A DNA stretch of 64,000 bases, taken from the NCBI GenBank assembly GCA_039962225.1, contig JAMPKV010000006.1, forward strand, positions 310,001-374,000, in the 5' to 3' direction. Positions 25,289 through 26,736 of the stretch are shown piece by piece (within the stretch, counting starts at the first letter, position 1; the number at the start of each line of letters is the position of its first letter). The notes under the pieces were generated by a model. It was not told the DNA's origin. It did not search any database and saw nothing but the letters and a program-made list of their open reading frames with translations. This DNA comes from Microcoleus sp. AS-A8. GTDB taxonomy: Bacteria > Cyanobacteriota > Cyanobacteriia > Cyanobacteriales > Coleofasciculaceae. The translations under genes and the position numbers were made by a program.

Positions 25289-25903
25289 TTAATTTTTTTC
25301 ATTTTTGATACTATACCGCAGGGTGGCTCCTGTATAACCGGTCGTCACCCAAAGGATAGCTCTAGCGCCATCTCGAATCGCTTTCTCGATCGGTTCAGGC
25401 GATCGCCCCGTGGGAATTTCTACAGGCTTCACTGCAATTCCTCGGCTACCAAACACAATTTCACCAATGACGCGAGCACGACGCATATGGTCGTCAGAGG
25501 TAATCAAATAGACACTATCAATCCCTTCCGATTGCAGCTTATCCACTAAAGTCGTGAAGTTGGTGACCGTATCCTCGGCCTTATAGTCTAGGTGGATGCG
25601 CTTCGTCTCAATTCCCGCCTTCGTAAACACCCGCTTTGCATACCATTGAGGGCTACCCGAAGACACCCAAATCGGTATTCCTGGATGCTTTTGAGCAAAC
25701 TTAGCGGCAAATAACTCTCGTTCCTCTTCTCCTCCTAAGACAAAAATGGCTTTCGGCTGTACGAAATAGCTTTCAACTTGCTTATAGCCATAGATGAGCG
25801 AAAGCGCCAGTACTGGCATCAGCAAAGAAAATAATCTAACTCTCGATCGCCGAGTGGGTGAAATTAGTTCTTGTCGTTTACGCGAAGCAATCCTCAGAAG
25901 CAT
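25289..25903 (-). CDS. YdcF/SanA (DUF218)-family membrane-anchored protein
   Basis: A 204-residue protein with a basic N-terminus, one membrane helix (about 24-44), and an extracytoplasmic DUF218 domain. The family marks are IFVLGGEEERELFAAKFAQKHPGIPIWVSSGS, a central DYKAEDTVTNF (E and T of the active site-like groove), and YLITSDDHMRRARVIGEIVFGSRGI. Relatives are ElyC and SanA, linked to cell envelope maintenance; biochemical activity is unclear. It stands alone, convergent with the DUF2288 gene. Confidence 0.85.
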   Translation of the reverse strand: MLLRIASRKRQELISPTRRSRVRLFSLLMPVLALSLIYGYKQVESYFVQPKAIFVLGGEEERELFAAKFAQKHPGIPIWVSSGSPQWYAKRVFTKAGIETKRIHLDYKAEDTVTNFTTLVDKLQSEGIDSVYLITSDDHMRRARVIGEIVFGSRGIAVKPVEIPTGRSPEPIEKAIRDGARAILWVTTGYTGATLRYSIKNEKN

Positions 25904-26303: not shown

Positions 26304-26619
26304 CGGGACAGGCCGGATTCGAACCGGCGACCTAGCGCTTCAGATTGGTGTGAGTTTCCCCACTCTCTGGACTATACCTTCACCATAGGCTGAAAGCCTT
26401 TAGGTGGTGGCCGTCTAGTCTCTAGACCTTCCTGATAACAACGTTGACGATTGATGCAATCGCGTTGAGTCAGGCTTGGCTCGGTATTGCCGTAGGGTGC
26501 CCAGCAAAAGGGTCACTCTTTAGGTTTCACCGAATTTGACCACATTCACTCATGGAGTTTCCTCCACGGTGCCCGATTGTTCAGGAGGCGCTCGCTCTAT
26601 CCATCTGAGCTACAGCCCC
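26304..26619 (-). tRNA. tRNA-Arg(CCU) split by a group I intron
   Basis: On the minus strand the 5-prime exon (26583-26619) ends in the anticodon loop after CCT, and the 3-prime exon (26304-26340) resumes with AAGCGCT. Joined, they give a 74-nt tRNA: D-arm GCTC...GAGC, anticodon stem AGCGC/GCGCT, loop CTCCTAA (anticodon CCU, reads AGG), T-arm GCCGG TTCGAAT CCGGC, discriminator G, no encoded CCA. The acceptor has one U-U mismatch (6-67) and one G-U pair (4-69). The exon ends with U and the intron with G, as splicing of group I introns requires. Confidence 0.9.
26341..26582 (-). ncRNA. Group I intron in tRNA-Arg(CCU)
   Basis: A 242-nt intervening sequence with the conserved core elements of small tRNA introns of the IC3 type: a P4-side GGTGAAACCTAA, a Q-like ACGGCAATACCGAGCC, an R-like GTCTAGAGACTAGACGG, the S element GAAGGTATAGTCC, and a 3-prime GTGGGGAAACTCAC hairpin before the terminal G. 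It has no ORF, so it probably self-splices without a homing endonuclease. Cyanobacterial tRNA-Leu(UAA) introns are the closest well-known class. The minimal size suggests a functional, streamlined ribozyme. Confidence 0.88.
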
Positions 26620-26736
26620 AATGTACGCACCCATTATAGCCAAAGCCGTTGACGAACAGAGAGCATATTGTGAAGAAGTGGAGAAAATTTTGCCCACTTC
26701 TACCCTTTGGGGAAAGGATTACTCAGCCCGAAAAGC

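Follow-up and report, generated by a model that had tools for sequence, protein, structure and literature searches.

We regard it as very probable that in the window (the whole stretch of 64,000 nucleotides of Microcoleus sp. AS-A8 DNA analysed here) a tRNA-Arg(CCU) gene, itself probably functional, is split by a small group I ribozyme, and that this intron comes from a two-type family which has entered, been lost or been replaced at one site.

The split tRNA-Arg(CCU) gene

The split gene occupied positions 26304-26619 on the minus strand, where a 242-nt intron separates two tRNA parts of 37 nt each. The following elements were assigned at the locus:

26583 to 26619, minus strand: exon 1, from the 5' strand of the acceptor stem through C34 C35 U36 of the anticodon; 37/37 identical to that of the same-genus genome G001
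26341 to 26582, minus strand: group I intron of 242 nt with type A core and without ORF, the last base (26341) being omega-G; from RF00028, fold and covariation
26304 to 26340, minus strand: exon 2, from A37 to discriminator G73; holds U67, mismatched with U6
26633 to 26638, minus strand: TATAAT, a candidate -10 box 13 nt upstream of the tRNA, found by eye
25289 to 25903, minus strand: DUF218 gene (PF02698), downstream of the tRNA and a frequent neighbour at the tRNA locus of relatives

The sequence-only reading had described the tRNA-Arg(CCU) intron as group I, compact and ORF-less, and this was borne out by Rfam, ARAGORN, the fold and covariation. A covariance-model search, which it had proposed, matched RF00028 at 26348-26595 with 64.4 bits (cut-off 50) and an E-value of 4.8e-14. 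In intron mode, ARAGORN reported tRNA-Arg(cct) with a 242-nt intron, and in no-intron mode it missed the window's tRNA-Arg(CCU) gene. The position after CCU in the anticodon loop and the length of 242 bases had been given exactly, as the intron (26582-26341) is inserted between U36 and A37; its 5' end is GAACAA and its 3' end AATCTG. When joined, the exons gave a full cloverleaf with a CCU anticodon in ARAGORN. The reported acceptor-stem mismatch was also present, pair 6-67 being U-U, and pair 4-69 of the same stem was G-U. TATAAT-like motifs were seen by eye upstream of many homologues, and a consensus scan returned neither a sigma-70 promoter pair nor a terminator at the window's tRNA gene.

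Fold and covariation of the intron

The structure was evaluated in 25 of the 33 introns measuring 300 nt or less, after exclusion of six that carry a stem in J7/3 and two that nearly duplicate others. Helices P1-P9, including the P3/P7 pseudoknot, had 95.2% standard pairs across these 25 homologous introns, and controls with slid partners reached 31.6-42.1%. Two-sided changes were found at 22 of 51 pairs, versus 12.8 in column shuffles. The covariation support stems from P2, P3, P4 and P6a; P1, P5, the P6 base, P7, the P8 base and P9 showed little or no variation, so no covariation signal arises there, and the tip of P8 was weakly paired (57 and 80%) in the 25 introns. The single-strand fold energy had a z-score of -4.0, and none of 200 shuffles was as low. 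The core elements of the window intron were placed as follows:

26572 to 26574, minus strand: internal guide GGG, which forms P1 with CCU of the exon, the splice site lying at U36-G; invariant in 25/25, with no covariation support
26538 to 26543, minus strand: P3 5' strand GUGGUC, partner 26407-26412; 100% paired, two-sided changes at 3/6 pairs
26529 to 26534, minus strand: P4 5' strand, partner 26480-26485; its sequence distinguishes types A and B; two-sided changes at 4/6 pairs
26416 to 26420, minus strand: P7 5' strand GACUA, partner UAGUC at 26370-26374; invariant in 25/25
26413 to 26415, minus strand: short J7/3; its type B equivalent is a 38-82-nt stem or a 626-662-nt LAGLIDADG ORF insert
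26407 to 26412, minus strand: P3 3' strand GGCCAC; in ORF-bearing relatives it codes part of the ORF tail
26350 to 26363, minus strand: P9 hairpin with a GAAA loop; 4/5 pairs never vary

P1 consists of 3 bp between CCU and GGG, its U36-G pair marking the 5' splice site in all 25 introns, and the terminal G was present in all 48 introns read. The ORF tail of most ORF-bearing relatives ends at a TAA just after the P3 3' strand. The intron has the hallmarks of group I, namely a conserved P3-P8 core with the P3/P7 pseudoknot, a U-G pair at the 5' splice site and omega-G. Judging by this anatomy, guanosine would attack at the U36-G pair of P1, omega-G would set the 3' site, and the exons would join to yield the tRNA.

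Copy number and state of the tRNA

The window genome had 68 matches to RF00005. No second tRNA-Arg(CCU) was present among the ARAGORN-typed genes at these matches, nor was one found in the genome by DNA similarity or by an intronless-junction pattern with one mismatch allowed; a weak match within an array, left untyped by ARAGORN, had the anticodon CTC by eye. A second intact gene, which the sequence-only reading had named as evidence against its proposal, was thus looked for and not found, and the window copy is apparently the genome's sole tRNA-Arg(CCU) gene, a missed copy being conceivable in an assembly of 54 contigs. RF00028 matched the genome once only, at the window intron, in a search blind to some ORF-bearing introns (L022, L030 and L090, the three tried, gave no match at the gathering score). 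On one contig of the window genome, 32 ARAGORN tRNA genes were arrayed (L062, G000:C7:262500-269800), many of whose isoacceptors duplicate ones present elsewhere in the genome.

The genome also contained two tRNA-Arg(UCU) genes. These could read AGG by wobble, and the tRNA-Arg(CCU) gene may therefore be dispensable. Such wobble reading forms part of an alternative in which the gene is a pseudogene or unspliceable relic whose U-U mismatch marks decay. The mismatch itself fits a relic, as U67 was read in just two of 48 introns (those of the window and of same-genus G001) and A67 in the other 46, and so does the presence of the two tRNA-Arg(UCU) genes. The comparison with G001 points the other way. 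The exons were identical at 37/37 and 37/37 positions (74/74), whereas the flanking intergenic DNA was identical at 104/118 and 347/400 positions (87-88%). The intron (231/243, 95.1%) exceeded both neighbouring ORFs (1022/1105, 92.5%, and 578/615, 94.0%), and the core helices were intact. We consider a relic very unlikely. A working tRNA is likely because the exons stayed identical while intergenic DNA diverged, and because U6-U67 occurs in both species; the window's tRNA-Arg(CCU) is accordingly predicted, as the likely case, to work in the cell. The acceptor mismatch may lower the stability of the tRNA.

Distribution among cyanobacteria

In the nearby set of 57 genomes, the window's own included, 54 matched the gene and the match extended into the intron in 36 (the copy of G010 was partly N, and G009 gave no match). 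Within the window's family, the Arg intron was found in 19 of 20 genomes. In the class sample it occurred sporadically, in at least 22 of 290 genomes from 12 families, all 22 being read; these counts may miss divergent or ORF-bearing copies. Any group I intron match was found in 149 of the 290 class genomes, and only 21 of the non-Arg introns behind that figure were assigned to a gene or inspected. The sequence-only reading had called introns of this tRNA far less frequent than the tRNA-Leu(UAA) intron of cyanobacteria. The contrast between the Arg count and that for any group I match agrees with it across the class sample; it fails locally, given the family's near-complete occupancy and this genome's tRNA-Leu(UAA), which ARAGORN found uninterrupted.

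Several loci whose 5' matches ran up to query positions 50-56 had been suspected of divergent introns; these, L099-L108, were read as intronless, and so were L109-L119, the further loci read as a check on them. In these 21 intronless alleles (L099-L119), CCT is joined straight to AA. Carriage of the window gene by phages or plasmids was also considered and rejected, as neither the phage nor the plasmid collection gave a match to it and viral contigs had no exact junction pattern.

A DUF218 gene followed the tRNA at 17 of 29 loci in L002-L031 (L017 excluded), at 2 of 19 short loci (L080-L098), at 13 of 17 loci in L120-L136, which are partly the same records as earlier loci, and at 1 of 21 intronless loci. 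The locus is therefore common to many intron-bearing genomes and less so to the intronless ones read.

Two core types and the J7/3 insert

The 48 introns read fell into type A, with the P4 of the window (26 introns), and type B, with another P4 (22 introns). In type A, the anchors GAGACT and ACGGCC around J7/3 are separated by 2 nt. The corresponding segment of the 22 type B introns measured 626-662 nt with a LAGLIDADG frame in 11, 38-82 nt in nine and 2 nt in two; the frame of L027 was disrupted, its longest open stretch being 125 aa. In each of the 20 inserts, 6-8 of the 8 positions at the base of the J7/3 insert could pair, the letters varying; the best offset had been picked per row, which biases the figure toward pairing. 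The usual start codon of the LAGLIDADG ORF was ATG, with ATA in its place in L031 and L089.

The window intron is of type A and has no ORF. In another type A intron, L090, a 462-nt segment in P5 carried an antisense HNH ORF. The same-genus locus L084 was without this segment, and its gene was otherwise 90-92% identical.

Movement of the intron

For the alphaproteobacterial tRNA-Arg(CCU) introns compared below, sporadic distribution and horizontal movement were reportedly treated by Paquin et al. in 1999, to go by the title. The sequence-only reading had suggested a phylogeny that would reveal horizontal movement and a comparison with the tRNA-Leu and tRNA-fMet introns. Trees were built with 42 of the 48 introns; G004 was dropped (partial rpoB), G007, G015, G016, G019 and G268 were unused, and G010 lay outside the 48. 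The intron alignment had just 202 columns and many nodes were weak; the split between types A and B was supported at 100/100. Movement was supported, as the intron alignment rejected the rpoB topology (AU p 8.3e-7, SH p 0). Monophyly of the window's family gave AU p 0.0025 and SH p 0.202, that of G020 with G051 AU p 0.017 and SH p 0.349, and that of family f48 was not rejected (AU p 0.356, SH p 0.727). The AU test did not separate a single entry of type B into this family from two entries (0.456). In G046 (C101:28324-28946) and G055 (C160:94493-95175), rpoB frames 1321 and 1349 aa long held about 207-227 aa extra near model positions 690-702, perhaps an intein.

Genomes G020 and G051 have RpoB proteins 99.4% identical, yet their introns are of types B and A, respectively. 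Their exons at the locus are identical, and a collinear alignment of 2.2 kb that includes the tRNA is 84.9% identical. At least within this genus, the intron was swapped at a common locus. The same pair of genomes (L224 for G020, L223 for G051) also had a group I intron in tRNA-Asn(GUU), read as lying between positions 35 and 36.

An old and purely vertical family, with types A and B as ancestral paralogues or alleles and the patchiness left by loss alone, would accord with retention of the intron throughout all but one genome of the window's family, with the recurrence of the DUF218 neighbour across families and with those tests in which monophyly stood, namely of f48 under AU and of the window's family and the G020/G051 pair under SH. 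It is opposed by the rejection of the host topology under both AU and SH, by the difference in type at one collinear locus between two such close genomes, and by the 57-genome search, in which no genome showed more than one tRNA-Arg(CCU) place with a match spanning the intron. Purely vertical descent is hence improbable in our view, scarcely less so than the relic discussed above, and gain, loss and replacement at the site is the reading we retain. As for the marks of a mobile intron, the history of the intron departs from that of its host, and the window intron, being ORF-less, has no endonuclease gene.

In the comparison with other tRNA introns, the Arg(CCU) introns of types A and B clustered together on a branch separate from the Leu and fMet introns (node support 96.4/67; some nodes weak). 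From these trees, movement of the intron appears to stay within the same tRNA, with moderate support. The intron of tRNA-Arg(UCU) in G087 fell among the Arg(CCU) introns, on a very long branch. Loci L232, L233 and L239 had RF00028 matches without an ARAGORN tRNA and perhaps lie in protein-coding genes.

LAGLIDADG and HNH proteins of the related introns

Three intron ORFs that were scanned matched PF03161 (2.1e-39, 5.5e-33 and 1.7e-25), and the HNH ORF of L090 matched PF13391. The LAGLIDADG profile and fold were nearest to I-WcaI and I-SceI (model pLDDT 79.1). A genome scan returned 17 LAGLIDADG loci, which overlap with the 11 ORF-bearing type B introns; all were cyanobacterial, 16 lying between tRNA-Arg(CCU) exons and one being cut by a contig end.

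Two Asp positions, which we take to be catalytic, match D44 and D145 of I-SceI, and this fits the alignment obtained here. The first Asp was present in 6 of 16 intron ORFs, the second in 3 of 16 and both in one of 16 (L120), the search words having forced parts of the motifs around the two positions and not the positions themselves. Among the 22 loci of the viral relatives, of which 20 are distinct, the first was present in 21/21 and the second in 22/22 of the loci covering it. Most LAGLIDADG ORFs thus look catalytically impaired, and homing by them today is doubtful for that reason. Over the 19 columns conserved at 90% or more in the viral relatives, the two Asp columns alone dropped under 40% among the intron ORFs, and all others stood at 62% or higher; the neighbouring G28, D122 and G124 were at 100%. 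Omega, obtained by simple counting along branches part of which may predate the loss of Asp, was 0.09 for L123-L124 (dS 0.39; the first Asp altered in each, the second retained), 0.17 for L132-L134 (dS 0.73; both Asp changed) and 0.13 for L128-L130 (dS 1.80; both Asp changed), and it reached 0.36 in pairs with L135. Stops within the matched stretch occurred in 4 of 16 intron ORFs, L134 included.

A maturase role is suggested because omega is low although the catalytic Asp residues are mostly lost. We put at nearly an even chance the proposal that the LAGLIDADG protein in the loop of the extra J7/3 stem repeatedly gave up DNA cleavage and was retained as a splicing maturase, with ORF-less forms such as that of the window managing without it. 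The type B ORFs may instead be endonuclease genes decaying after fixation, in a cycle of gain and loss, and not maturases. Decay would leave stops such as those in the four named ORFs, the shortened open stretch of L027 and the higher omega seen with L135, and the ORF-less 38-82-nt stems at the same place resemble remnants. It sits poorly with a loss confined, among the virally conserved columns, to the catalytic pair beside invariant neighbours, and with omega values of 0.09-0.17 in three pairs with common changed catalytic sites. We hold decay to be a serious contender, though somewhat short of an even chance; the maturase proposal is the one carried forward below.

Relatives of the HNH protein outside L090 numbered two at E 1e-10, in G087 and G234. 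In G087 (L220:1180-1430), a tRNA-Arg(UCU) gene had its own group I intron, read as lying between positions 34 and 35 (RF00028 33.4 bits, below the cut-off). A divergent HNH gene lies just upstream of that tRNA gene and is 55% identical to the intron HNH of L090. The relative in G234 (L221:1501-1800; 47% over part of the L090 ORF) has tRNA genes on either side; they belong to an array of which the available sequence contains 22 tRNAs.

Discussion

The tRNA-Arg(CCU) introns of alphaproteobacteria (Agrobacterium; BbgpI of Bartonella) are likewise small group I introns of the same tRNA, with 232 nt from amplicon sizes given in the accessible portion of the source (PMC7717549). According to the same portion, CCT direct repeats flank BbgpI (PMC7717549), and the likeness to the window intron is one of description only. 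Within open-access literature, the tRNA-Arg(CCU) group I introns found were alphaproteobacterial only (accessible text of PMC7717549). For cyanobacterial tRNA introns, tRNA-Leu alone is mentioned in the available part of a 2025 review (PMC12702839), and by the available part of a 2017 report, introns had before it been known in Leu and fMet only (PMC5733544). That part also reports 'group I introns' of 22-49 nt in other tRNAs (PMC5733544); that length is insufficient for the core described above.

The tRNA-Leu(UAA) intron of Anabaena is also small and situated in the anticodon loop; it resembles the window intron in its core and has a P1 of 3 bp (PMC12702839, in part). It differs in interrupting another tRNA and in its separate branch of the intron tree, and it is absent from the window genome. 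The cyanobacterial tRNA-fMet intron is also a group I intron in a tRNA gene, and its Synechocystis copy carries the endonuclease ORF I-Ssp6803I (PMC1995217, in part). This enzyme is of the PD-(D/E)XK kind, whereas the Arg family has LAGLIDADG_2 ORFs in J7/3 of type B introns or, in a single type A intron, an HNH ORF lying antisense in P5, and the tRNA-fMet intron stands on a branch apart from the Arg(CCU) introns. LAGLIDADG maturases such as the protein of the Thermotoga neapolitana 23S intron and I-AniI are encoded by introns and aid their own intron (PMC3984707, PMC1995217, PMC3943268, each in part). Their introns lie outside tRNA genes, and for the Arg-family ORFs a maturase role is only inferred. 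The P7.1/P7.2 extension of Synechococcus L2593 and phage Twort likewise enlarges the P7 region with additional structure (PMC1995217, in part), but the extra stem of Arg type B lies in J7/3 and its loop often holds an ORF.

The window lineage would have the compact ORF-less type A form of a family with gains, losses and replacements at one tRNA-Arg(CCU) site. Its spread would most simply be explained by homing or gene conversion through intron-borne endonucleases, with cleavage and homing presumed; the endonuclease-type ORFs observed are the LAGLIDADG frames of type B, located in J7/3, and the antisense HNH frame within P5 of one type A relative. The window intron is an ordinary ORF-less addition to a known kind of intron, and the family is more interesting. 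A default tRNA finder run without introns misses the gene, and the genome would then seem to be without tRNA-Arg(CCU). Alleles lacking the intron, alleles whose intron has no ORF, alleles with a stem alone and alleles with an ORF all occur at one site, and one genus has both types. With nuclease-type ORFs that have changed active sites and are under selection, the question of a passage from endonuclease to splicing helper becomes directly testable. If the maturase reading is true, the family would provide a natural contrast between maturase-dependent and maturase-independent forms of one tRNA intron.
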